From assembly GCA_002163155.1 (NCBI GenBank), contig MAAO01000006.1, positions 930,001-994,000 of the forward strand: a stretch of DNA of 64,000 bases. Direction: 5' to 3'. This stretch comes from Halobacteriovorax marinus (lineage in GTDB: Bacteria; Bdellovibrionota; Bacteriovoracia; Bacteriovoracales; Bacteriovoracaceae). The notes under the pieces were generated by a model, which was not told where the DNA came from, did no database searches, and was given only the letters and a program-made list of their open reading frames with translations. The position numbers and the translations under genes were made by a program. Numbering within the stretch: position 1 is the first letter of the stretch; each line of letters begins with the position of its first letter. Positions 5,809-20,200 of the stretch are shown piece after piece.

Positions 5809-6717
5809 ATGATACCCTTTGCACAACTCGCAGACCCCAAAATGGCCGAACGGATCACTCAAGAACTAAACAAACAAGGTATACAATCTAGTTACAGCTA
5901 TGATGAAGCCGCTTCAATTTACACTTTAGTTGTTGAAGATCAAGCGAATTTTGAGCAGGCACAGGATATATTCAGAGTAATGATGGGCCTTCCAAAGAAG
6001 TTTGAACCTTCTAAAGAATGGGAGGAAATCCAATCAATTCCTATGGGGATTGTGACTAAGGTTACTATAGGTTTCTGTATCTTAGTTTATGTCTTAAATG
6101 CATTCAAAATATTGCCTGAACTCTATTCTGTTATGAAAATTTCAAGCTCATCTAATGGTCTACCAGAGATTGTGAGCCAGGGACAGTTTTGGCGACTCTT
6201 AACTCCTGCCTTCCTTCACTTTAACTTCATGCATATTCTCTTTAATATGATGTGGATGAAAGACTTGGGAAAAATTATAGAACATGAAAAGAAGTCAAAC
6301 TTTCTCATGCTCTTCATTGTTATAGTGGGGATCGGTTCAAACTTTTCTCAGTTCTTAATTTCAGGACCTAACTTTGGAGGAATGAGTGGGGTCGTATATG
6401 GACTACTTGGTTACTTATGGATGTATAAGAAGTTTAATTCTAACGCCCAGTTCTCTCTACCAAAAAGTGACGTCATGTTGATGATAGGTTGGTTCTTTCT
6501 GTGTCTTATAGGCGTCTTCTCGTTTTCCATTGCAAATATGGCCCATGCTATGGGTTTAACTCTCGGAATGCTCGGAGGTATCTTCTATGGCCTTAAGGAT
6601 GCGAGTGGTTCCTATTCATTAAAGAAATCTCTGCTCTATGTCTTTTTATCTCTTTCGTTACCTGTACTCACTTATGGTGTTGAGATTTTTAAAGTTATAT
6701 TAAAAACAAAGACTTAG
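5809..6717 (+). CDS. glpG: GlpG-type rhomboid intramembrane serine protease
   Basis: A 302-residue rhomboid protease. A cytoplasmic N-terminal domain (about residues 1-70) resembles that of GlpG. It is followed by six membrane segments. The catalytic serine is S193 in GMSG and the catalytic histidine is H246 in AHAMG; H137, H142 and N146 in the second segment match the oxyanion-side residues of E. coli GlpG. All catalytic residues are intact, unlike the second rhomboid-like protein at 50326-51069. It precedes the giant exported protein by 89 bases on the same strand, but a common transcript is uncertain. Confidence 0.9.
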   Translation: MIPFAQLADPKMAERITQELNKQGIQSSYSYDEAASIYTLVVEDQANFEQAQDIFRVMMGLPKKFEPSKEWEEIQSIPMGIVTKVTIGFCILVYVLNAFKILPELYSVMKISSSSNGLPEIVSQGQFWRLLTPAFLHFNFMHILFNMMWMKDLGKIIEHEKKSNFLMLFIVIVGIGSNFSQFLISGPNFGGMSGVVYGLLGYLWMYKKFNSNAQFSLPKSDVMLMIGWFFLCLIGVFSFSIANMAHAMGLTLGMLGGIFYGLKDASGSYSLKKSLLYVFLSLSLPVLTYGVEIFKVILKTKT

Positions 6718-6726
6718 CTCTCTTGA

Positions 6727-6803
6727 TTCTCTCTCAAGTAAAACACTCAGGTAACCGATAAGTGACTGAGGAATAGATTGATTCAAGTTCAATCTAGAGA
6801 GAA
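6727..6803 (+). promoter_or_regulatory. Structured leader before the giant gene (candidate)
   Basis: TTCTCTCT at 6727-6734 can pair with AGAGAGAA at 6796-6803, which includes the only purine-rich stretch that could serve as ribosome site for the TTG start at 6807. Between them GATTGA/TCAATC with 7 bases between (6776-6794) forms a second hairpin. Sequestration of the ribosome site is inferred from complementarity only. Confidence 0.3.
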
Positions 6804-6806
6804 AAA

Positions 6807-9800
6807 TTGAGAGATAATCGCCTAGTTACAACATTCTTTTTAAGTTTGATGCTTATATTTTTAAGCAGTCGAACATTTGCGCACAAACTCCTCTATGAAA
6901 ATAGTAATTCTAAATCACGGGTTGCTACAGCTGTTTACCTTGACGAAGAGTCTGGTCAAATTGTTGTAAAAAAATACTCATGGGATGCTGACTTTGAAAG
7001 AAGTAGAACTTCAAAAGTTCAAATAAAGTTTCCACAGAATGTAAAATCTTTTTCTAGCATGTATAGCTCATTAAGTGAAGACTATGCGGGACTGAGAAGT
7101 TCACAAAAATTTATTAATTTAAATCAGAGATCTAAAGATCTTAAAAAAGAGCTCTCAAGAACAGTTGATGACAAGTCTTCGAAGTTTTCTTCAAGTAGTA
7201 CAGTGGATCTTATTGCCAAGCAAATTCTAAAAACTTCTCCCTATAAAGTGATTGCTCATAGAAAGAAAGGGTTTAACCACAATATCTTCCTACTCAATTC
7301 TGTGACTGGCGAATTCTATATGAAGTCGGGTCGTAAAACAGATTTAAACTTAGGGTCTAGTATTGCTTTTCCAAAAGATCTAGATAGAAGGTTGTATCAG
7401 AGTGATTCAGATAAGTATGACTTATCTAGCCCTTCTAAAATCAAAAATAACCTCTCTCGTATAAAAAGTTCTTTAAAGAAATCAGGTCTAGATTTACGAG
7501 AAGTGAATATTGCTCTCAATCAAATACACGATCTAAGAAGAGAACAACAAAAGAAAATAGAAAAAATGAAAGTTATTCGGTCTATTAAAGATGGCGATGA
7601 AACAACAGAGTTGTTGTTTAACTTTGAAACAGGTGAGTTCTACTATAGAAGAATCGAAGATGGAAAAGTTCAAGATGATCAATTTTTTGATATTAATAAT
7701 GATAAGAACTTAGGTGATTTAAAAGAGAAACTTCGACGTGCAGATCTCTATGATGAAGGTGAATTTAACGATACATTTCAAGAAACTTTTATTAGGCACT
7801 GTGCCGGCAGCTCCTCATTGGATGATCTTCTACCTAATATTGATGGAAAGATTGAGGACATTTTAAAGGTCAATGACGCTATTTGGGATCAATATCTAAG
7901 AAATTCTTTAGCTAAGAAACCAGTTGTTCTAAATGATGGATCCATGGTGCTTGGAATTAATGCTCTTGGTAGAGATCATAATGTGCAAATTGAGTTAGAT
8001 GCTTTAGGTAATATAAAAAATCTAAAATTTCTAAATGAGGACTCTGCAACTAGTGGTGGTGTAGAAATAGTGAAAGTTATCGAGAATGGTAAAGCACTTT
8101 TCAAAATTATTTCATCTGAAACAAATGAAGACCTCTTCTTCTTTGATATGGAAAATAAAAGCGTTATTACGAAACCAAATACTGCGAACTTAGCTGTGTA
8201 TGTGAAGGGTAAGAAAGGGATGTCTAAAGTCTCTAGAAATATGTTTGATAAGAATGTTTTTCAATTAGAGTTTTCCGGTGAAAAATTTAATAGTGTTGGA
8301 AGTCGAATACAATTGTCCTCAGAGAGAGAAAGTCCTTATGTATCTGATATTAAAAAAGGGGATAGTTCGGGCTTTACGTCATTTGTTTTTAGTAACTTCT
8401 TTAGTTTAAGCAGTAAGAGAAATAAAATATCAAAAGAAATTAAAGCAGCTATTAAGCAGCAGAAAAGTACCATTAATAAAGATGGAAAAATACTTTTAAA
8501 AGATAATGAAATTCACTCTACTGTATTACAAATTGTAAGCGATGTTGAGGCTGAGTACCCAAAACTTGATGCTAATGTATCTAAATTAACAGCTAAAACT
8601 TATGAACATTCCTATAAGAGGTTTATCTCAATAATTGTTCCTAGAATGATTAATGATTTAATGCCTGGTGAAGCTGATCAATTTTATAAGGACATAGCAA
8701 AGAAATCTATGAATGGTTTAAATGACTGTTTGCTTAGGGCCTCTAAGAAATCCAACACTGAGGCCTCTACAAAGTGTGTTGATACTTATATGGTGGAAGC
8801 TCCAGTACTAATTGGAGAAGAGCTATTAAAGTTTCAACTTGAGTCAAATAATCAAAGTATCCTAACTGGGAATGCCGTCTTAGAATATAATAAGTGTATT
8901 AAAGAGTTCTATGATAAGTCGAAAGAATTAGACTTTGTAAAAGGATGTCTCTACAGAGCAACTCTACAGTCTATTGATAATAAATTAGAAGACGTAGTTG
9001 GACTCACGCTTAAAGCGATGGAAAAAGAGTACGAAACGCAAGGTAAGGATGTCTCATTCAAGCTCTCAACAGCTTCCATAGACTTAGCGAGGAAGTCTCT
9101 TAGAGGTTGTTATAAGAAAAAAGGATTTATAAAACCCACAGTTTTTTCTGATAAGTATCAATTAGAGAAATTAAATCCTCTTGAAACTGAGAAATTTAAA
9201 CAGGAAATTTTTAGCTGTGTTTCTGAAATAGAAGCAGTAGTGGGAAGAGATGTTTCGGCCACCTTAGTCTCTAATGAATTAAAAGAGATGGCGATAGATA
9301 CTGATGTTAAAAAACAAATTAAACAAAGTGTACTCGTTAGTGGCTATGACAAATGTGTGAATGCTCAGAAAAAGAAAATTGCTATCTTGGAGAAATCTGG
9401 AATTTGGCAAAAAATTGACGTTCAAAAATGCGCAAACTTTGTCACAGTAGTCGCCACTTCAAAAGTTATTGATGAAATGCTTAAAGATAAACTTGGTAGT
9501 GAGCAGTGGGATAAATTACTCGTGAGTGATAAGTCTCCCCATCATGGCTGTTTTAAAGAACTAGAGAACCTAAGTCTTAAAAATTCATTAAAAGAGAAAC
9601 CAAGTAAACTAGATCTTGAGGGAGAGTCTACAAAATGCCTAAAGCAGGGAATCGTTTGGGCATCTTACTATCTAGGAGTACAAGAGTTAGAAAAAACATT
9701 TCAAAGCGACAAACTCTATCGAAAGATAAACCTTTCGAAAGAAAAGAAAGATCTCTTTGCTAAGAAACTTCAGAGTTGTTTCAAAGAAGAAATGAAAGAC

Positions 9801-12440
9801 TTCAAGTCTGTTGCACAAGTGACAGACTCTCTGGCAAAGGTGCAGGACAAATGTACTGTAGCTCTGATCATGGGAAAAGAAGCACAAGTTGATATCTTAG
9901 GTCCTGTGGTAGAGGGAATGCTAGAAGACCAGAATGTAAGTGAAGAAATCATTGCTAAAACAAAAGGTGGAATCATTTCTGCCATGAAAGCTAGGGTTAC
10001 AGATAGACTAAAGAGTGAATCTCTTAGTTTAGATCAAGTGGTAGATGAATTTAAAAAAGTTCAAGGAACTGCTAGTTACTTTGTTGCAGATGCTACAGTA
10101 GATAAATATGTAAGAGATATGGTGAAAGATGAAGCTAAATCTAAAGTTCTTTCTCTATCTCTTCGTAAAAAATTATTTGATGGGGACAGGGGTTATAGAA
10201 ATCAATTACTAAAAGCGAAGGGACCTGCAGAGCTAAAAGTTGTTATTAATAACTTAACAAAAGATGCGGCAGTTGATCTTACCGAAGCAGTAACAAGAGA
10301 AGAGATTACAAAGTTAAAAGAAGAAGGAATTGTAAAAAGCCAAGAAAGAGTAGATGAAATAGCTAAAGATGCTAGAAATTTCATGAAGAATTGTCTTGAT
10401 GCCTTTAGTGATATTGGGACCTTTACTGATCATGTACAAAAGTGTGTCTTAACTACAAAGACTGAAGTGACTTATGATGTCTTTGACAATCAATTACACA
10501 CTATTCTCTTTGAAAGTGAATACGCACACCTAATTTCAGAAGAAGAGAAGAAGTCACTATTAAAGAAGTTTTTAAATAAAGACTTTAAAGACAATATTGC
10601 AAAAGCCTATGAGATTGGTTCTCTTGCAAACCTAAAAGACAACTTTGTCTTAGATGCTACTAGCGCCATTGCTTCTAAAGTTATCGGAGGTTCAATCTCA
10701 GATATAGTATTAAAAGGAAAAGGAGCTGATCATCCTAAGTATCAAGAGAAACTACAGCTTGTTAAAGATATTTCAACTGCGGCCATAAGTTCCTTAGATG
10801 AGTGTCTAGTTATTCAAAAAATTGCTTTGAAAGATAGTAAGAAAGCTATCGACACAAATACATGTATTAATAAATCAAGACTAAAAGCGACTGAGTTAGT
10901 CTTTGAAGATATCTTAGGGAATTTTACTGGTTACTTTGAATTTAGTAACAAGAAGAAAGCGCTCTTAGTTAAAGAGCAGTCAAATGCTCTTAAAAAATGC
11001 GCACAAGTAAATGGTTTGAATATCAAAGGCGCAAAATTCGCTGATGACTTAAATTCTTGTTTAATCGAATCCATATTTGATTATGTAAGAAATAGTGTTG
11101 AGCATGTAACTGCTAATAGTTCTAATATTGATGATATTAAAAATATTGACCTGGTGGCCTATGATCGTTGTATTGAAGACTCTAAACGTGAGCTTGTAAA
11201 AGATCTAAAAAATCAAGGTGTAGCCAGTATTCAGAGAACAGCTCTCTATTCAAAAATAGATAAGGGTGTTGAATTTTGGAACCAGCTCTTTAGTGGGAAG
11301 CACGCAAGCAGCAGTAGTGTCCATGTTCAAAAGGCGATCAAAGTAGTTGAGATCTGTGCTCTAACGAAAGTAGTTCCCTTAGCGATAGATAGCCTCTTAA
11401 CACAAAATACTCTCTCTACTAAAATGAGCTTAAATAGGTCTGAGATCAATTTTGCTAATGATCTCATTGGTAAATTAAAATCCTTCTCTTCAGAGTCTTT
11501 TAAAACAGGATTGTGGATTGATCTTACAGCAAAGGCAAGTGCAACTTCTGCTAGTGCTAAACCCTCTGAAAAAGTGTCTTCGGGTTCTACAGCTGTAAAA
11601 GAGGTTGAAGAAGAATCAATTGATTCCTACTTAAATAAATTTCTACCCATGGTAGGAGATTATCTTAAGAAGATTCATGCTTACGATCCAACAGGTGCTA
11701 AAATTGCAATGAATAGCTTAATTGCAGATATTCAAAAAGCACTTAAGAAGAAAGAAAAGTTAACGCTAGATGATTTAAAAGATATTCTCATGCAATCAGA
11801 TCTTATTGATGTGGTAATTATGTCTGAAATTGCTTCATTTATTAAAAAAGAAGCTAAGGCCCCTTTGACTAAAGAAGGAGTTCCTTTAAGTGTAATTAAT
11901 ATACTCTCTTCTAAGAAAATCCTAGGGCCTATCTTCTCTACATCTAACCCAAGAGGTAAGAAGGCGCTGGAAGATATTAAAAAAGGTTTTGTACGACCTC
12001 TATTAGATGGCAAGAAGCTAAAAGGTATTCCAAAGAATCTGATTAAAGAAGTGAAGATTGTTCTCTCCAATGACACCAAAGTGGGTGGGTTTGTTGAAAC
12101 AATTGCAGGCTCTATCGTACAGAATAAGCTAGATGATAAGAGGCCTGGTAATATTGCCTCGAAAGGTGTTGCAGGACTTATGGGCTACAATCATCGCGAC
12201 TTTGATTGGAAGAATTTAAGAAGAAGAACTCAGTCTGGCGTCAGTAAGAAAAATCAACCAGTGCAAAAAGCAATCGATTATTTTGGGAGTAGTGTTCTAA
12301 GACCTATTCTCTTAAATCAAAAGCTGGGAACTTACACTAAGTATGGATTTTTCTCTAACAAGAAAATTGATATTATGGAAGAGAGAAAAGAAAAATTTGC
12401 AGAAAAGGTTGAAGAATTAATGGAGCTAGATAGAAAATAG
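6807..12440 (+). CDS. Giant exported protein with ten cysteine-pair helical units (1877 aa)
   Basis: Not recognised. The N-terminus is a good signal peptide ending near TFA-HK, so the protein is periplasmic or secreted. Residues 30-600 are mixed and basic, with two stretches that read as poorly conserved repeats (phrases like ...GEFYYR, ...GEFYM). From about residue 640 to 1520 a pattern recurs: a cysteine followed by a hydrophobic residue at the end of a helix, then 15-61 residues, then a second cysteine (often K-C) starting another helix. The pairs fall at C641/C657, C697/C714, C768/C804, C850/C875, C915/C944, C991/C1016, C1196/C1213, C1333/C1353, C1398/C1418 and C1455/C1517. This suggests disulfide-stapled helical hairpins in tandem. 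A Ser/Ala-rich linker (about 1575-1595) precedes a basic C-terminal region. The start is TTG with a weak ribosome site; the first in-frame ATG would leave a very short signal peptide. Confidence 0.8.
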   Translation: MRDNRLVTTFFLSLMLIFLSSRTFAHKLLYENSNSKSRVATAVYLDEESGQIVVKKYSWDADFERSRTSKVQIKFPQNVKSFSSMYSSLSEDYAGLRSSQKFINLNQRSKDLKKELSRTVDDKSSKFSSSSTVDLIAKQILKTSPYKVIAHRKKGFNHNIFLLNSVTGEFYMKSGRKTDLNLGSSIAFPKDLDRRLYQSDSDKYDLSSPSKIKNNLSRIKSSLKKSGLDLREVNIALNQIHDLRREQQKKIEKMKVIRSIKDGDETTELLFNFETGEFYYRRIEDGKVQDDQFFDINNDKNLGDLKEKLRRADLYDEGEFNDTFQETFIRHCAGSSSLDDLLPNIDGKIEDILKVNDAIWDQYLRNSLAKKPVVLNDGSMVLGINALGRDHNVQIELDALGNIKNLKFLNEDSATSGGVEIVKVIENGKALFKIISSETNEDLFFFDMENKSVITKPNTANLAVYVKGKKGMSKVSRNMFDKNVFQLEFSGEKFNSVGSRIQLSSERESPYVSDIKKGDSSGFTSFVFSNFFSLSSKRNKISKEIKAAIKQQKSTINKDGKILLKDNEIHSTVLQIVSDVEAEYPKLDANVSKLTAKTYEHSYKRFISIIVPRMINDLMPGEADQFYKDIAKKSMNGLNDCLLRASKKSNTEASTKCVDTYMVEAPVLIGEELLKFQLESNNQSILTGNAVLEYNKCIKEFYDKSKELDFVKGCLYRATLQSIDNKLEDVVGLTLKAMEKEYETQGKDVSFKLSTASIDLARKSLRGCYKKKGFIKPTVFSDKYQLEKLNPLETEKFKQEIFSCVSEIEAVVGRDVSATLVSNELKEMAIDTDVKKQIKQSVLVSGYDKCVNAQKKKIAILEKSGIWQKIDVQKCANFVTVVATSKVIDEMLKDKLGSEQWDKLLVSDKSPHHGCFKELENLSLKNSLKEKPSKLDLEGESTKCLKQGIVWASYYLGVQELEKTFQSDKLYRKINLSKEKKDLFAKKLQSCFKEEMKDFKSVAQVTDSLAKVQDKCTVALIMGKEAQVDILGPVVEGMLEDQNVSEEIIAKTKGGIISAMKARVTDRLKSESLSLDQVVDEFKKVQGTASYFVADATVDKYVRDMVKDEAKSKVLSLSLRKKLFDGDRGYRNQLLKAKGPAELKVVINNLTKDAAVDLTEAVTREEITKLKEEGIVKSQERVDEIAKDARNFMKNCLDAFSDIGTFTDHVQKCVLTTKTEVTYDVFDNQLHTILFESEYAHLISEEEKKSLLKKFLNKDFKDNIAKAYEIGSLANLKDNFVLDATSAIASKVIGGSISDIVLKGKGADHPKYQEKLQLVKDISTAAISSLDECLVIQKIALKDSKKAIDTNTCINKSRLKATELVFEDILGNFTGYFEFSNKKKALLVKEQSNALKKCAQVNGLNIKGAKFADDLNSCLIESIFDYVRNSVEHVTANSSNIDDIKNIDLVAYDRCIEDSKRELVKDLKNQGVASIQRTALYSKIDKGVEFWNQLFSGKHASSSSVHVQKAIKVVEICALTKVVPLAIDSLLTQNTLSTKMSLNRSEINFANDLIGKLKSFSSESFKTGLWIDLTAKASATSASAKPSEKVSSGSTAVKEVEEESIDSYLNKFLPMVGDYLKKIHAYDPTGAKIAMNSLIADIQKALKKKEKLTLDDLKDILMQSDLIDVVIMSEIASFIKKEAKAPLTKEGVPLSVINILSSKKILGPIFSTSNPRGKKALEDIKKGFVRPLLDGKKLKGIPKNLIKEVKIVLSNDTKVGGFVETIAGSIVQNKLDDKRPGNIASKGVAGLMGYNHRDFDWKNLRRRTQSGVSKKNQPVQKAIDYFGSSVLRPILLNQKLGTYTKYGFFSNKKIDIMEERKEKFAEKVEELMELDRK

Positions 12441-14232: not shown

Positions 14233-14304
14233 AGTTAGCTCACGTAATATCTTAAAATAACTATGATATACTTATTCTATCCATATAGGAATGCAAAGGT
14301 TTTA

Positions 14305-14685
14305 ATGAGCAATATATGTCTAATCATTTTATTCACTCTCTTGAATGTTTCAGTAAAAGCTCAAGTACTCGACAAAGATAATCTACTCAATCGTGAAGAG
14401 AAGAACTCGACACTTAGACGAAGATTAGAACCTCGCTTGAGTAATAAGTACTACCGTGGTCGCTATCTCGTTTATGATTGTATAGATCGCCACTATGTCT
14501 GTGTAAACCTTCCCAGTTTTTATAACTGCAGAGAGACCCGGGTAAAAGAAATTGAAAATAAGGAAGTCTTACTAAGCTGTGCACCTTTGAAGCTGTTTAA
14601 GACGCAAAAAGAGTGCTTTGACGCCAACTATAAACTTATTCATAGAGTGACCAACAAAGCTTTTTGTGTGAATAGAATTTTCTAG
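14305..14685 (+). CDS. Small secreted cysteine-rich protein (126 aa)
   Basis: Unrecognised. Starting at 14305 gives a clean signal peptide (MSNICLIILFTLLNVSVKA, cleavage before QVL) and AAAGG five bases before the ATG; the longer frame from 14263 has no ribosome site. The mature part is about 105 residues, basic, with six cysteines (CIDRHYVC, NC, SC, EC, FC), enough for three disulfides. This suggests a compact periplasmic or exported protein. Its 3' end overlaps the convergent acetyltransferase gene by 4 bases. Confidence 0.65.
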   Translation: MSNICLIILFTLLNVSVKAQVLDKDNLLNREEKNSTLRRRLEPRLSNKYYRGRYLVYDCIDRHYVCVNLPSFYNCRETRVKEIENKEVLLSCAPLKLFKTQKECFDANYKLIHRVTNKAFCVNRIF

Positions 14686-15119
14686 TCGATTTTCTTGTAC
14701 ATTAAGACGTGGGGACCAATTCCTTCTATTTGGAATTCGCTTTCAACTTTTTCGAATCCGACTTTTTGATAAAAGCCCTGTGCCGTAGTTCTGGCATTAC
14801 ACCATAGCAATTGACAAAAATTCTGTTTAATAATTGGAAAAGCTGTCTTCAGCAGAGCGGAGCTAAGTCCTTTACCTTGGTGCTCTTGAAGTGTGGCCAT
14901 TCCTCTTAAACGGTATTGATATTCTTCTGTGAGTGAATTGCTCTTTTCGAAATAAAAAGAGGCAACACTTACTAATTGCTTATCTATGAAGGCCCCAAGG
15001 TGAAAAGTTTGCTCATCTTCATCGTGAGAGAAGTGGCAATCTTCCAGGGGTCTTCCTGACCTTAGGATTAAATTTCTGATCTGATATGTGTCAGAGGCAT
15101 TGATTCTTAATACATTCAT
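14682..15119 (-). CDS. GNAT-family N-acetyltransferase
   Basis: A 145-residue Gcn5-related acetyltransferase. The acetyl-CoA binding motif A is visible as LRGMATLQEHQGKGLSSALL (residues 74-93; Q-G-K-G-L-S binds the pyrophosphate), and motif B as NARTTAQGFYQKVGFEKV. The beta strand before motif A carries the usual hydrophobic pattern. The substrate cannot be told: relatives acetylate amines, amino acids or ribosomal proteins. The gene stands alone between two secreted unknowns. Confidence 0.85.
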   Translation of the reverse strand: MNVLRINASDTYQIRNLILRSGRPLEDCHFSHDEDEQTFHLGAFIDKQLVSVASFYFEKSNSLTEEYQYRLRGMATLQEHQGKGLSSALLKTAFPIIKQNFCQLLWCNARTTAQGFYQKVGFEKVESEFQIEGIGPHVLMYKKID

Positions 15120-15206: not shown

Positions 15207-15839
15207 CTAGTAAGTGCTTGAAATTCTGAATAGGTTCTCCATTGCTAGCTGGGCCAATGCTTTAGAGAAAAACTCGAAGACAGTATTTGGTATATCGCTA
15301 TGGGGACCTTCCCAGGAAGCTGTGGTGTAGAAGAGACAGCGGTTTTTGTAATTTATAGTGACGATATTTCCATGCAGACCACTAAGAAACCCTTGATCAA
15401 ATTTAAAGGGGTATATGCCGGGTGATTTTATCCTTGGAATTTTAAAGTTTAAGCTCATGTCATAAGGAAGTAAGAGGGAAGATAGGAGGAAGTTTACTCT
15501 TTGCGATTTTTCGTCATATGAACTGTTCTTTATAAACCCTAAATGTTTAGAATAACTTTCATAATGGGCCAATTTTCGCAACGCGAAGCGACAATCTTTG
15601 GGATGCAGCCCCGCAATATAAAAAAATAATTTTTGATTTTTTATTTTTTTTATTTCGTAGTCTGAAACTTGCGATTTTACGTAGACATCATTTCGTAAAA
15701 CTTTTCTCCATGCGGAGATTCCAATAGATTTTTCAATACTTACTTGATCAAAAATGTTGTTCTCCAGCACCAAAGTTTTGGCCTGAATTGGAGCCGAGAA
15801 GGCTAATATAGTGAAAATATATTGTTTTATGTGACGCAT
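15207..15839 (-). CDS. Secreted protein of unknown function (210 aa)
   Basis: Not recognised. The frame extends up to 15938, which would overlap the divergent topoisomerase gene, but the ATG at 15837-15839 has AAAGG 4 bases upstream and begins a proper signal peptide (MRHIKQYIFTILAFSAPIQA, then KTL). The mature protein is about 190 residues with two cysteines (KDCRF and NRCLF) that may pair, and a C-terminal WEGPHSDIPNTVFEFF stretch. Divergent from the topoisomerase operon. Confidence 0.6.
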   Translation of the reverse strand: MRHIKQYIFTILAFSAPIQAKTLVLENNIFDQVSIEKSIGISAWRKVLRNDVYVKSQVSDYEIKKIKNQKLFFYIAGLHPKDCRFALRKLAHYESYSKHLGFIKNSSYDEKSQRVNFLLSSLLLPYDMSLNFKIPRIKSPGIYPFKFDQGFLSGLHGNIVTINYKNRCLFYTTASWEGPHSDIPNTVFEFFSKALAQLAMENLFRISSTY

Positions 15840-15924
15840 TGTACCTTTTCTTGGATAATATGGCCTATTAATCTCTTTAATATACCAAAATATACCATAA
15901 CCTAAAGCATAGGAAAAATGACGC

Positions 15925-18027
15925 ATGGGCAAGAGCATTGAAGCTGTAAAAAGAAAGGGAAAGGCAAAAGAAGCTGCGATCGAGAGTAAGGATCAAAGGT
16001 GGCATTGTCGCAATAGAATTACCCTGGTATTTGGTTCAAACGATGTCGAGGAATTAGACACATATACGTACGATAACGATAAGTTGAACTTTCAAACAGT
16101 TAAATTTCACCAGGCCAAGAGTAAGGCCATTGAGGAAATTTTAGATAACTGTATTGATGAGTACTACCGTGGTCATGTGACAGAAATTCACTGTGAACTA
16201 TCCTCTGATGGAAAGACAGTTATTGTTGAAGATAATGGAATAGGCTTTCCTGTTGGAAAAGTTCCCCAAGTTTATAGTGAGTTTAGAACAGGTTCTAAAT
16301 TCAAAGACGAAGAGACTGATAAGAAGGGCTTCTTACACAGAACTCTTGGACAAAATGGTCTTGGTGCTGCTGCAACTTGTCTTACTAGTGATGAATTTAA
16401 AGTAAGGGTTCGCCACTATAATACAAAGAAAGAACAAACTTATACATTTATTGATGGTGCTCTTAAAATAAAGAAGACCAAACCGAAGCCTTTTAAAGGT
16501 CACTCCGGAGTAAGAATAGAGTTAGTTCTTTCTAAGGAAGTATATAAGAATAATAAAATTGATTCTCATCTACTTAGAAAGAGAGTCATTGATTTAGCTT
16601 ATAATAATCCTGGTTTGACCTTCTATTTTAACAAAGAAAAATACCACTTTAAAAAAGGTCTATTTGAACTAGCACAAAGAGTAGACTCGAGTACGGCACA
16701 AGAGTTTGGAACTAGTGCTTATATATTTGAATCAACTACTGCTAGAGGCAAGAAAGTTAAGGGGAAAATCGATATGTCGATTGCCCTTAATATAAATAGA
16801 GCTTCTGAAGAACGAGAAAAATTCATTTCTTTTGTTAATTCTACTCCCACTTTTGACGGTGGTTTTCACCACGATAGAGTGAAGCGTATCTTCGTAAATT
16901 CTTTAAAAGAAAAGCTTGCAAGAACTGCTAAAAAAGAAAAAGTTACTTTGATTGATAACGATATTTTGACAGGAATGACTTTCACAATTGGTATTACTAT
17001 GCCAAATCCAAGGTTTGAATCACAAACTAAGAGAAAGCTTGTTCGCGATGCCTTTTTAGATAAGGGTATTGAAGATATCATGAGTAAGAATATTGATAAG
17101 TTCTTTAGAAAAAATAAAGAGTACTTAGAAAATATTATGGAGAGAGCGAAAGCTCGTAGTCGTTTCCAAGAATTAAAAGACGCTTCAAAAGTTGGTCGTA
17201 AGCAGAAAAGACAAAGAGTTGAAAAACTTCTTGATGCTAACGAAAGAAAGAAAAGAGAGCTTTGTTCACTTTTTATTTGTGAAGGGGACTCGGCGATTGG
17301 TGGACTTCGTTCTGCTAGGGATAAACTGTATCAAGGTGGAATTGCCCTAAAAGGTAAACCTATGAACGTTGCCCAAGCTGCCATAAAAGATATTTTAAAT
17401 AATCAGGAATTTGCAGATATTATGGCCTCTATTGGTCTTGTTATTGGTGTCCCAGCAGAAGTTCAGAATTTACGTTATTCAAAAGTTATTTTCTTAGCGG
17501 ATTCTGATGTTGATGGTGGTCATATCAATACACTGCTAGCGAACTTTTTCTACCAGTTTTGGCCAGAGTTGTTCGAACAGGAAGTTATCTGTATTGCAAA
17601 AGCTCCACTTTTTGAGGTTATTACTGATAAGGGAACTAAGTATATTGAAACTCCACCGGAGTTAGAAACATTCCGTGAAACAACCAAACTAAAAATAAAA
17701 GAGATTCAAAGAAACAAAGGACTAGGGGAAATGTCACCTGAAGCCTGGAAACATGTTCTCTCTAGAGACTCATTCACTATTATTTCAGCAGACGATATAG
17801 CTAAAGCCAAAGAAATGCTCAATGTTTGTTTTGGTAAAGACACCAGTCTAAGAAAAAATCTTCTTATGGATGAAGACTCCGCTGGAGAAAGTGTTTCAGT
17901 TTCTATTTCAGGTAAGGCGAAGAAAGCTACAAAAAAAGCTGCGACTAAAAAGAAAGTAGTTAAGAAGAAAGTGGCTAAAAAGAAAACAGCAAAGAAAAAA
18001 ACAACTAAGAAAAAAACAAAGAAGTAA
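15925..18027 (+). CDS. Type IIA DNA topoisomerase, ATPase/TOPRIM subunit (ParE/GyrB-like, divergent)
   Basis: A 700-residue B subunit. The GHKL ATPase is visible: EEILDNCIDE, VEDNGIGFP, and GQNGLGAAAT. Then the transducer with QTKRKL, and the TOPRIM domain with CEGDSAIGG and DSDVDGGH. It differs from ordinary GyrB/ParE: the R-x-RPGMYIG segment is missing, and the ATP-lid motif reads G-x-NG-x-GA, as in T4 and eukaryotic topoisomerase II, rather than GLHGVGA. The last 45 residues are a lysine-rich tail of KK[AKT] repeats. It is co-transcribed with the A subunit, 14 bases downstream. Confidence 0.88.
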   Translation: MGKSIEAVKRKGKAKEAAIESKDQRWHCRNRITLVFGSNDVEELDTYTYDNDKLNFQTVKFHQAKSKAIEEILDNCIDEYYRGHVTEIHCELSSDGKTVIVEDNGIGFPVGKVPQVYSEFRTGSKFKDEETDKKGFLHRTLGQNGLGAAATCLTSDEFKVRVRHYNTKKEQTYTFIDGALKIKKTKPKPFKGHSGVRIELVLSKEVYKNNKIDSHLLRKRVIDLAYNNPGLTFYFNKEKYHFKKGLFELAQRVDSSTAQEFGTSAYIFESTTARGKKVKGKIDMSIALNINRASEEREKFISFVNSTPTFDGGFHHDRVKRIFVNSLKEKLARTAKKEKVTLIDNDILTGMTFTIGITMPNPRFESQTKRKLVRDAFLDKGIEDIMSKNIDKFFRKNKEYLENIMERAKARSRFQELKDASKVGRKQKRQRVEKLLDANERKKRELCSLFICEGDSAIGGLRSARDKLYQGGIALKGKPMNVAQAAIKDILNNQEFADIMASIGLVIGVPAEVQNLRYSKVIFLADSDVDGGHINTLLANFFYQFWPELFEQEVICIAKAPLFEVITDKGTKYIETPPELETFRETTKLKIKEIQRNKGLGEMSPEAWKHVLSRDSFTIISADDIAKAKEMLNVCFGKDTSLRKNLLMDEDSAGESVSVSISGKAKKATKKAATKKKVVKKKVAKKKTAKKKTTKKKTKK

Positions 18028-18041
18028 GGATCAAATAAGTT

Positions 18042-19502
18042 ATGGAAGAAAGTTACCTGCACGCAATGGCCAGCATTCCTCTTGAAGATATAGTTAAAGA
18101 GGAATACAGAATCTATCAAATTTATACGCTTATGGATCGTGCTATTCCTTATTTAAAGGATGGTCTAAAGCCAGGGCAAAGAAGAATTCTTTTTACACTT
18201 TGGAAAAATCAATCCAAAGGGCTTATGAAAGTTTCCTCTGCCACAGGTTTGGTTTTAACTCTTCATCCACATGGTCCAGCCTCTGTTGAGTCTGCCATTG
18301 TTAATATGGCGCAAGATTATACCTTTTCAAATAACTATCCCCTGATTGATAAGAAGGGATACTTTGGAGAGAGAATGGAAACTTCTCCTGCGGCTTCAAG
18401 GTATATTGAGTGTAAGCTTGGAAAGATTTCTCAAATTTTACTCTTCGATGATATGAACCAAGTCGAAATGGTCCCTAACTACGATGAAAAAGTTATGGAG
18501 CCAGTGAATCTTCTTCCAAAACTTCCAATCATGCTAATGAACGGTGCTGAAGGAATTGGAACTGGATTTTCTTCTGTAATTCCTAGTTTTGGTCATAAAG
18601 AAATTATCGCTTCGATGATCAATTTTCTGGAGACTGGTAAAACTAAGAAATTAAAGCCTTTTAATAATGGTTACACTCTTCCAATTGAACGTGATGAAAG
18701 AGGACGTCTTCTTTTTAGAATGGGATTCGAGAAAAAAGGTGATAAAATTTTTATTACTGAATTACCTAGAGGTTACGACGCCGCTAAAACGTATAAATTC
18801 TTAGCTAAGCATATTGAAGCAGATTTTATTAAAGATTATATCGATTCGTCTGTTGATAACACTGTAAATATTGAACTGATCTTTAAAAGGGGAGTCGAAA
18901 GAACCCTTAAAGAAGTTATCAGTACAATGGGTACTATGGCGTCACAAGTTCCAAACTACACTCTTATTTCTGAGCGTGGAGTTAGGATTTTTGAAAAACC
19001 AGAAGAGATCATTGAAATTTTCTCAGGTCAAAGACTAGTTGTTGTAAGAAAGCGCTACGAATTAAGATGTAGTGATTTAGAACAGAAAATTATTCAAAAC
19101 AATGAAATTATAAAGTTCATTAAAAAGAAAGAATACGAAGTTGCCACCAAATCAAAGAACAGAAAAACTTTTGTAGAGTATCTAGGAAAGAAGAAATATG
19201 TTTTTTCTGACTACCTTGCAGATATGCCAATTTATAGAATGACTAAAGAAGAAGTGGCAAAACGTGTCCTTATGGTTAAGGACGATAAGAAACTCTTTGC
19301 TGAATATTCTAAGGTTGCTAAATCTCCAAAAATTATTAAGAAGAAATTGATCGAAGAGCTCAAAGACGTTGGTGAACAATTATCAAGCTGGCTAAGAGCA
19401 AAAGATAGAGAGCAAATTGAGCTTAGAAAGAAGATAGATAAGAAAACAGCAAAAGCAGCTGGTAAGAAAACTAAGAAGAAAGCAGTAAAAAAGAAAAGAT
19501 AA
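18042..19502 (+). CDS. Type IIA DNA topoisomerase, cleavage subunit without pinwheel domain (ParC/GyrA-like, divergent)
   Basis: A 486-residue A subunit: winged helix, tower and coiled coil, but no C-terminal beta-pinwheel domain (GyrA and ParC are 750-900). The catalytic tyrosine is Y121 in ASRYIE, preceded by R120. The segment NNYPLIDKKGYFGER resembles the NN-x-x-LL-x-x-x-G-x-FG-x-R block of eukaryotic and T4 enzymes more than the bacterial form. Ends in a short lysine-rich tail like its partner. The pair could be a decatenase or a predator-specific enzyme; whether normal gyrase and topoisomerase IV also exist cannot be seen here. Confidence 0.88.
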   Translation: MEESYLHAMASIPLEDIVKEEYRIYQIYTLMDRAIPYLKDGLKPGQRRILFTLWKNQSKGLMKVSSATGLVLTLHPHGPASVESAIVNMAQDYTFSNNYPLIDKKGYFGERMETSPAASRYIECKLGKISQILLFDDMNQVEMVPNYDEKVMEPVNLLPKLPIMLMNGAEGIGTGFSSVIPSFGHKEIIASMINFLETGKTKKLKPFNNGYTLPIERDERGRLLFRMGFEKKGDKIFITELPRGYDAAKTYKFLAKHIEADFIKDYIDSSVDNTVNIELIFKRGVERTLKEVISTMGTMASQVPNYTLISERGVRIFEKPEEIIEIFSGQRLVVVRKRYELRCSDLEQKIIQNNEIIKFIKKKEYEVATKSKNRKTFVEYLGKKKYVFSDYLADMPIYRMTKEEVAKRVLMVKDDKKLFAEYSKVAKSPKIIKKKLIEELKDVGEQLSSWLRAKDREQIELRKKIDKKTAKAAGKKTKKKAVKKKR

Positions 19503-19507
19503 TAAAG

Positions 19508-19533
19508 AAAGGAGCCTTAGAGCTCCTTTTTTT
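19508..19533 (+). terminator. Rho-independent terminator of the topoisomerase operon
   Basis: An 8-bp perfect stem AAAGGAGC/GCTCCTTT with a 6-base loop, followed by a run of T. Confidence 0.92.
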
Positions 19534-20200
19534 ATATTGCTTTTAGATGATTATTTTTAGTTCCATTTTCTAGCAAGCATTTATTATAGAGGTATGCTTG
19601 ATAGTTGAAGCATAAGTTTCTCGCTTCATTTACTCGGAACATCTTATTTTCTATTCTCTTAAAAAGTTCTTCCTTAGTTTCATCTCTTTGTTCAGTAGTG
19701 TAGTGATAATCAATGGCCTTCTCAAGACTTGAGAGGAACATAGGTCCATACATTCTGTGACCCCATAGATCCATGGCAATTAATTGATTCGTAAAATTAA
19801 TGGCCATTAAGTCTGCACTCAGAGAATTGCCTGTAGTGTACTCCTTAATTACCTCATTATATAAGCTTGAGGCGTATTGGCATTTAGAAGTAAAGTTAGA
19901 ATACATATTCCAATAACCAACGATTGAAAATGTTGTAAATATAAGAAAAGGTTCAACATCAATTCCAAAGAGAATTAGGTTAAAACTTGAAAAAATACTA
20001 TAGTAAATTGAAAAAATTGCAGCAGTAGTTAATGTGGCCCTAACCAAAAGAAAACTATTTCTTGGTCTGTTTTTAAAAAACATAAATCTAAAGAGAGCGA
20101 AGTTTTCTATTCCCCAGTGAAACCAGTCACTGACGTTTTGATGTCCACTTTCTTTTAAATATATTCGTTCAGGTATTTTCATTCGTAATCCATTGTTCAT
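19532..20200 (-). CDS. Hypothetical protein with two membrane segments
   Basis: Not recognised. 222 residues with an N-terminal cytoplasmic part, two adjacent hydrophobic helices (about 52-72 and 76-96) and a mostly helical soluble C-terminus. Two close Met codons (20200 and 20182) are possible starts; neither has a clear ribosome site, so the start is uncertain. Its stop lies at the base of the convergent topoisomerase terminator. No motif suggests a function. Confidence 0.6.
   Translation of the reverse strand: MNNGLRMKIPERIYLKESGHQNVSDWFHWGIENFALFRFMFFKNRPRNSFLLVRATLTTAAIFSIYYSIFSSFNLILFGIDVEPFLIFTTFSIVGYWNMYSNFTSKCQYASSLYNEVIKEYTTGNSLSADLMAINFTNQLIAMDLWGHRMYGPMFLSSLEKAIDYHYTTEQRDETKEELFKRIENKMFRVNEARNLCFNYQAYLYNKCLLENGTKNNHLKAI

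Follow-up and report, generated by a model that had tools for sequence, protein, structure and literature searches.

A type IIA topoisomerase pair resident in the Bacteriovoracaceae that appears to belong to the phage and eukaryote side of the family

Quinolones and anticancer drugs act on type IIA topoisomerases, enzymes whose phage and eukaryotic forms are of disputed origin. We analysed two adjacent genes predicted to encode such an enzyme in Halobacteriovorax marinus, at positions 15925 to 19502 of a 64,000-nucleotide stretch of contig MAAO01000006.1 (positions 930,001 to 994,000, forward strand), called the window below. An initial annotation had described them as a T4- or eukaryote-like pair with lysine-rich tails. 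Guglielmini et al. 2022, as cited in PMC12198294, proposed that eukaryotic Top2 is of viral origin. According to a review (PMC8084294), M. smegmatis has an additional, divergent type IIA enzyme, TopoNM, for which a viral origin was suggested and which is absent even from related bacteria. The window pair, compared with it by description only, is likewise a divergent, additional type IIA pair in bacteria, and a viral origin can be suggested for it too. Among the titles and abstract beginnings of open-licence PubMed Central articles, we found no description of the Bacteriovoracaceae pair.

T4 topoisomerase II (gp39/gp60 and gp52) resembles the pair in its short A subunit (446-aa open reading frame, ORF) devoid of pinwheel, its NG-type ATP lid, the EGDSAIG motif of its TOPRIM domain and its side of the tree. 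In contrast, a record note describes an insertion that splits the large subunit of T4; the T4 ORF lengths show no Lys tails, and the pair falls outside the T4 clade. Yeast Top2 lies on the same side of the tree and shares the SNN...G-x-FG-x-R and NGAEGIGTG motifs of the A subunit, but eukaryotic Top2 is one fused chain instead of the product of two genes. Topoisomerase IV (ParE/ParC) has two subunits and likely a similar role beside gyrase; nevertheless, the window pair is devoid of its C-terminal domain, is placed outside the ParEC clade and scores far below the family cut-offs. It differs from gyrase by the absence of the PF03989 pinwheel and by its position outside the gyrase clade. The reading that we favour, with a probability of roughly 0.7, is that the two proteins form a complete A2B2 type IIA topoisomerase resident in the Bacteriovoracaceae, which belongs to a deep lineage on the phage (T4-superfamily) and eukaryote side and serves as a decatenase and relaxase in the role of topoisomerase IV.

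The ORFs and their Pfam domains agree with the initial annotation of a type IIA pair. Only 14 bp separate the two ORFs, whose features are the following.

15925..18027, + strand: topoisomerase B subunit (ATPase, transducer and TOPRIM), 700 aa
16126..16416, + strand: GHKL ATPase match (HATPase_c, Pfam), B residues 68-164, with N-box and NG-type lid
16738..17178, + strand: transducer match (DNA_gyraseB, Pfam) with QTK loop, B residues 272-418
17269..17559, + strand: TOPRIM match (Pfam), B residues 449-545, with EGDSA and DSDVDG motifs
17872..18024, + strand: Lys-rich C-terminal tail of B, residues 650-700, 22 Lys in 51
18042..19502, + strand: topoisomerase A subunit (DNA cleavage core without pinwheel), 486 aa
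18270..18293, + strand: equivalent of the quinolone pocket, A residues H77-S84, with A80 at the position of GyrA S83 and S84 at that of D87
18402..18404, + strand: predicted catalytic tyrosine Y121 of A, invariant in 27 of 27 members
19410..19499, + strand: Lys-rich C-terminal end of A, 15 Lys and Arg in the last 30 residues

DNA_gyraseB_C is a sub-threshold Pfam match in B. The sole Pfam match of A is DNA_topoisoIV (residues 33-441); the pinwheel family PF03989, which has no match in A, was detected in the GyrA of the same genome as a positive control. The catalytic positions were matched by alignment to E. coli columns (those of GyrB for B), and we take their functional roles to be those of E. 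coli gyrase. Residues E71, N75, Q367-T368-K369, E453, D526, D528 and D530 of B are invariant in the 24 aligned family members. The pair thus harbours a GHKL ATPase with its QTK loop, the TOPRIM Glu and DxDxD motif, the catalytic Tyr and the intercalating Ile, and, as judged from its sequence, it is a type IIA topoisomerase with intact catalytic residues and no pinwheel domain.

The motif peculiarities reported in the initial annotation are also present. B has no RPGMYIG block, its N-terminal stretch reading RNRITLVFGS, and its ATP lid is TLGQNGLGA versus SGGLHGVGV in E. coli GyrB. NG instead of HG in the lid is not unique to T4 and eukaryotes, as it is also found in bac_L165, which we take for a Bacteroidota-type topoisomerase IV. 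The A subunit carries the NN...FG-x-R block, NNYPLIDKKGYFGERM, and stops before the pinwheel.

The genome, 99.99% complete, contains exactly two matches each to PF00204 and PF00521. The second set is a standard gyrase (828 and 835 aa) with pinwheel, on another contig, and the scan with the two profiles revealed no type IIA pair beyond these two. As a normal gyrase pair is thus present, the studied pair is not simply the lone essential type IIA enzyme of the lineage, an outcome that the initial annotation had left open. We then used the A core as a query against 280 genomes of the phylum Bdellovibrionota, to which the Bacteriovoracaceae, a family known for predators, belong. Orthologues were defined by a best E value <1e-110 and counted by hand, only part of the first-look candidates being scored in some genomes. 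The A orthologue was detected in 83 of the 92 genomes of the window's family and in none of the 188 others. It is in two pieces on different contigs in G176 and G201. Nine family genomes have no A orthologue (G192, G214, G220, G222, G237, G253, G271, G277 and G279); the completeness of eight of them is at most 91%, that of G277 being 98%.

Outside the family, the A core yielded one match in 175 genomes, two in 7 and none in 6, with a best score of 124 bits versus at least 621 bits for full-length orthologues. Of 20 genomes chosen from other families and checked with the profile, 18 had a single PF00521 match; in G002, one such gene apparently lies in pieces on two contigs, and two genes are present in G022. 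Based on these mostly single matches, gyrase alone appears to serve most of the phylum, the Bacteriovoracaceae having a second enzyme.

A scan of genome contigs, which picks up close relatives only, collected 39 related loci, the best A match being 85% identical (L005). Most are labelled Bacteriovoracaceae, Halobacteriovoraceae, Bacteriovorax, Halobacteriovorax, Bacteriovoracales or Bacteriovoracia, and a few carry looser labels (Oligoflexia, Bdellovibrio, Bdellovibrionales, Deltaproteobacteria, Proteobacteria or 'bacterium'). Homologues of window ORFs in these loci, some of which are too short for the whole neighbourhood, are A (39), B (36), an uncharacterized gene at 15210-15992 (35), a GNAT acetyltransferase gene (30), a small ORF at 14248-14682 (28) and a gene that we take from its sequence to be argS-like (26). 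The setting is one of chromosomal synteny and not a prophage, and the conserved gene order around A indicates that the pair is resident.

One locus, L035, from a 'Bacteroidia' bin (G290), lies on a contig of coverage 0.8 and contains an incomplete A gene of Bacteriovoracaceae type; the bin has two further A genes. No B gene was found upstream of the partial A. We set this case aside as a candidate transfer because, with such coverage and an incomplete pair, contamination is likely. When G290 and other genomes of its phylum, 41 in total, were searched, no further orthologue was identified outside G290.

To place the pair, we computed concatenated trees of 63 rows, 47 rows (1062 columns, LG+C20+F+G4 PMSF) and 51 rows, all unrooted. 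In the three trees, the pair lies with most phages and yeast on one side of a branch supported at 100 or 100/100, with the gyrase and topoisomerase IV rows on the other. The bacterial side holds gyrases, ParEC, Bacteroidota-type rows (an inferred label) and the gyrase-type enzymes of virus contigs L095 and L102, joined by L111 in the 63-row tree. With 51 rows, three 'toprim' topoisomerases from plasmids and the GyrB of a Deferribacter plasmid are added, and all four fall on the bacterial side, two of them placed by B alone. Within its own side, the pair is sister to all phages and yeast, with a Shimodaira-Hasegawa-like approximate likelihood ratio test (SH-aLRT) value of 93 with 63 rows and support of 94/92 with 47 rows and 98/96 with 51 rows. 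Trees of A only (58 rows) and B only (59 rows) both keep the main split (SH-aLRT 99 and 100).

Regarding sampling, the Bdellovibrionota gyrases are represented by L044, L047 and L048, taken from 30 loci. Near-copies (L080, L087, L091, L092 and L131) and loci without a full pair never entered the trees. Four long rows of unsure place (vo_L111, ph_MA9V1, vo_L116 and ph_Bue1) were dropped from the 47-row tree onward and from the single-subunit trees, and 12 more rows were removed from the 47-row tree as near-copies or to save time.

A separate lineage, distinct from gyrase and topoisomerase IV, had been proposed in the initial annotation, and nesting of the pair within ordinary ParEC would contradict it. 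We weighed this against an ordinary, fast-evolving topoisomerase IV that would have lost its C-terminal domain and been drawn to the phages by long-branch attraction. Approximately unbiased (AU) tests, performed under a site-heterogeneous model after the first trees were known, rejected the grouping of the pair with the gyrase/ParEC core (p 1.23e-05), with the Bacteroidota-type topoisomerase IV rows (p 1.46e-05) and with ParEC plus L168 (p 4.8e-05), the last comparison being limited to the ParEC of E. coli and a single ParEC-like row. The nesting thus did not occur, and both single-subunit trees also separate the pair. Furthermore, the proteins miss the NCBIfam topoisomerase IV cut-offs by a wide margin, with 207.6 versus 723.35 bits for TIGR01055, 142.1 versus 628.9 for TIGR01062, 230.9 versus 899.95 for TIGR01058 and 123.3 versus 813.25 for TIGR01061. 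The same holds for two short topoisomerase IV A models, NF007208 (479 positions; 104.5 versus 598 bits), whose label is chlamydial, and NF007209 (635 positions; 168.5 versus 644 bits). The FG-x-R, SNN and NGAEGIGTG motifs of A are common to yeast Top2 and partly to phages.

Several results nevertheless weigh against a phage- and eukaryote-side lineage, and some of them speak for a derived topoisomerase IV. The best PDB matches of B are ParE and GyrB (177 and 169 bits), ahead of the T6 phage enzyme (145 bits) and human Top2 (127 bits). Foldseek also ranks gyrase and topoisomerase IV models first for B, with human Top2 third and T6 fourth, and for A it places T6 and T4 first by a small margin only, with a model of modest confidence. 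The stem of the pair is long (1.1-1.2 changes per column). In the trees, the Bdellovibrionota and the phylum of G290 apart, bacteria are represented by E. coli and four plasmids, with no chlamydial short ParC or TopoNM. The B-only tree unites the pair with a set of phages described below (SH-aLRT 69), unlike the A-only tree. Finally, a match of B to PHROG 543, the T4 gp39 type, was rejected as a sign of T4 affinity: since the GyrB of the same genome outscores B (509 versus 464 bits), this match is uninformative. The pair also fills the slot taken elsewhere by topoisomerase IV. Taking the topology tests and cut-offs together with these points, we consider a derived ParEC very unlikely.

Other searches bear on the same question. 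The nearest PDB match of A is yeast Top2 (132 bits). A search with the 160 N-terminal residues, aimed at a eukaryotic sequence in PDB, ranked gyrases first and was discarded. The AlphaFold models, built from 27 and 24 close sequences and with predicted local distance difference test (pLDDT) values of 74 and 68, are too weak to decide kinship.

In the collections searched, the best matches outside the family are pairs of B and short A genes on phage contigs, 28-35% identical to ours. We called v1 a group of such IMG/VR contigs (L077-L092, L097, L112, L123, L129 and L131), with identities of 28-32% for B and 30-35% for A. We scored the fetched loci, including the 30 gyrase loci of the phylum and the plasmid loci, with hidden Markov models (HMMs) built on the family alignments. 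The B model gave 285-355 bits for v1, with 199 bits for the larger piece of the split L129 gene, 267 for Agrobacterium phage Atu_ph04 (Pootjesviridae), 262 for virus contig L093, at most 254 for bacterial rows outside the family, 226 and 166 for E. coli GyrB and ParE, and 119 for T4 gp39. With the A model, scores were 197-243 for v1, 200 for X1, 193 for a fused huge-phage Top2, at most 156 for bacterial rows outside the family, 143 for T4 gp52, and 141 and 123 for E. coli ParC and GyrA. Thus, except for the B of L129, the family models rank the v1 relatives above every fetched bacterial row outside the family.

The v1 and Atu_ph04 pairs resemble the Bacteriovoracaceae pair in a near full-length alignment of B, mostly including the part before the N-box, and in a short A (stop-to-stop ORFs of 435-494 aa); the pinwheel match is absent from the two v1 A proteins scanned. 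They differ in that the Bacteriovoracaceae pair is chromosomal and vertically inherited, and the v1 B ORFs (625-652 aa, L129 being split) leave no room for a long tail. A terminase match over the cut-off (PF03237) was found on 2 of the 13 v1 contigs tested, of 117 kb and 244 kb, the other 11 being 15-92 kb long. On both of these contigs, the topoisomerase genes lie near primase and ClpP-like protease genes. Of the 10 neighbouring ORFs scanned, 3 had no match, and the neighbours in L084 also include RNA ligase, MazG-like and phosphoesterase families.

Given these relatives, an ancestor of the Bacteriovoracaceae may have captured the pair, the donor being a T4-superfamily-like phage of the v1 or Atu_ph04 kind, and kept it as a decatenase, a scenario compatible with the reading that we favour and to which we give even odds. 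The AU test did not reject a clade of the pair with v1 and Atu_ph04 (p 0.119), the clade weakly recovered in the B-only tree, and the pair is confined to one family of the phylum. On the other hand, the best concatenated trees place it outside all sampled phages, and no close copy of it was found in the viral contigs searched. The 'perhaps phage-derived' of the initial annotation therefore stands in part: the best distant matches are on phage contigs and the pair is on the phage and eukaryote side, but it is not nested in a phage clade, being sister to all sampled phages and yeast together. A phage origin would fit these data; the family would have gained the pair long ago, perhaps from a phage.

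As the trees are unrooted, the gene may have moved either way. The pair might conversely be a surviving cellular branch of the stock behind the phage and eukaryotic type IIA enzymes, from which phages took theirs. Its position as sister to all sampled phages and yeast would suit such a history. However, this would require loss in most other bacteria, the scans found close relatives in the Bacteriovoracaceae only, no root was inferred, and the sister position is not significantly better than a sister group with v1; we regard it as quite improbable. It is also doubtful that the pair is a resident cellular lineage, whatever its route into the family, which diverged earlier than yeast Top2 and the sampled phage enzymes and is used as the chromosomal decatenase instead of topoisomerase IV. 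If the pre-phage split were true, the pair would serve as a cellular reference with which to root the disputed origin of the T4 and eukaryotic enzymes. More generally, a putative phage- and eukaryote-type enzyme on the chromosomes of a whole bacterial family brings a cellular lineage into this dispute.

Some of the viral relatives have unusual architectures. In L129, the 244-kb phage contig, B is split near residue 454, with a 408-aa ORF (5881-7104) devoid of PHROG or Pfam matches between the pieces; L128 is likewise split near residue 454. This recalls the gp39/gp60 split of T4, but at another place. L177 (LR756501.1), a 735-kb uncultured phage, encodes a single, 1103-aa fused B-A topoisomerase whose A part is 40% identical to yeast Top2 and which groups with yeast at 100/99. 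A query of the viral contigs with a yeast Top2 fragment, aimed at giant-virus relatives, gave no match, and thus the eukaryotes in the trees are represented by yeast alone, beside this one fused huge-phage Top2.

Under the reading that we favour, of a resident enzyme in the topoisomerase IV role, two A and two B subunits would form the usual three-gate enzyme. ATP would close B around the T-segment, the two Y121 residues and the TOPRIM metals would open the G-segment, and the T-segment would exit through the coiled-coil gate of A. Such ATP-dependent strand passage would support decatenation and relaxation beside an ordinary gyrase. In the absence of a pinwheel, these activities are expected rather than supercoiling, a task that would stay with gyrase. 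The Bacteriovoracaceae might thus offer a natural test of whether a phage- and eukaryote-type enzyme can stand in for topoisomerase IV. We also predict a low sensitivity of the pair to quinolones, because the quinolone-binding serine and acidic positions are changed in A: among 27 members, position 80 is Ala in 26 and Val in one, and position 84 is Ser in 14, Thr in 7, Gln in 5 and Ala in one, never acidic.

Alternatively, the pair could be a specialised enzyme that does not substitute for topoisomerase IV, with a function in defence, in the maintenance of plasmids or prophages, or in positive supercoiling as for TopoNM. A divergent type IIA enzyme in addition to the usual ones has a precedent in TopoNM (PMC8084294), and divergent type IIA genes occur on plasmids. 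Nevertheless, the retention of the pair in most family genomes in one chromosomal setting, and the placement of the 'toprim' topoisomerases from plasmids among the bacterial rows, for those tried, make such a specialised function unlikely. The plasmids L180, L181 and L182 (Mycobacterium, Bacillus and Ruminococcus) encode 'toprim domain' GyrB-like proteins, with a GyrA-like partner on the first two, which form their own divergent group on the bacterial side.

Both subunits of the window pair end in Lys-rich tails, as initially annotated, and no other window ORF of at least 100 aa has 12 or more Lys and Arg in its last 30 residues. We defined a Lys-rich B tail as at least 15 residues with at least 30% Lys and Arg, and a Lys-rich A end as at least 12 Lys and Arg in the last 30 residues. 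By these thresholds, and including the window, Lys-rich tails are present in 22 of the 36 B ORFs whose end was found and in 29 of 37 A ORFs. The B tail varies between 2 and 140 residues across the family. It is just under the threshold in L007, L008 and L010, and it is 25-28 residues long and weakly basic in seven ORFs; in L028, L031, L032 and L034, B stops at most three residues past the core. The v1 phage B ORFs also stop at about the end of the core. In the predicted model of B, pLDDT falls below 50 from residue 637, and the window tail has no structure.

The proposal in the initial annotation that the tails replace the pinwheel as DNA-wrapping elements is not supported: because they vary so much across the family, wrapping is unlikely. 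Given this variability, the short v1 B proteins and the unstructured model, a tether fits better. Where present, the tails would most likely hold the enzyme on DNA as an accessory element for affinity and processivity. In Streptomyces TopA, as described in PMC7398561, the end of the protein carries H1-like Lys repeats that contribute to processivity, which falls upon their removal. TopA is a type I enzyme, and the likeness is by analogy alone.

The GNAT gene of the neighbourhood (14682-15119, - strand) is two genes upstream of B. It is thinkable that its product acetylates the Lys tails. Against this link, loci such as L018, L022 and L028 have the GNAT gene but no Lys-rich B tail.

Elsewhere in the window, an 1877-aa ORF (6807-12440, + strand) has no Pfam match, and pieces homologous to it were found in 3 of the 39 related loci, many of which are too short to reach that far. 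One further feature follows A directly:

19502..19535, + strand: terminator-like hairpin directly 3' of A (consensus match)

The hairpin consensus was found at 2 sites in the stretch versus 2.3 expected by chance. Lastly, a Phe/Val-rich, 137-aa antisense ORF (17706-18119, - strand) lies over the Lys tail of B and is probably a by-product of the repeated Lys codons.

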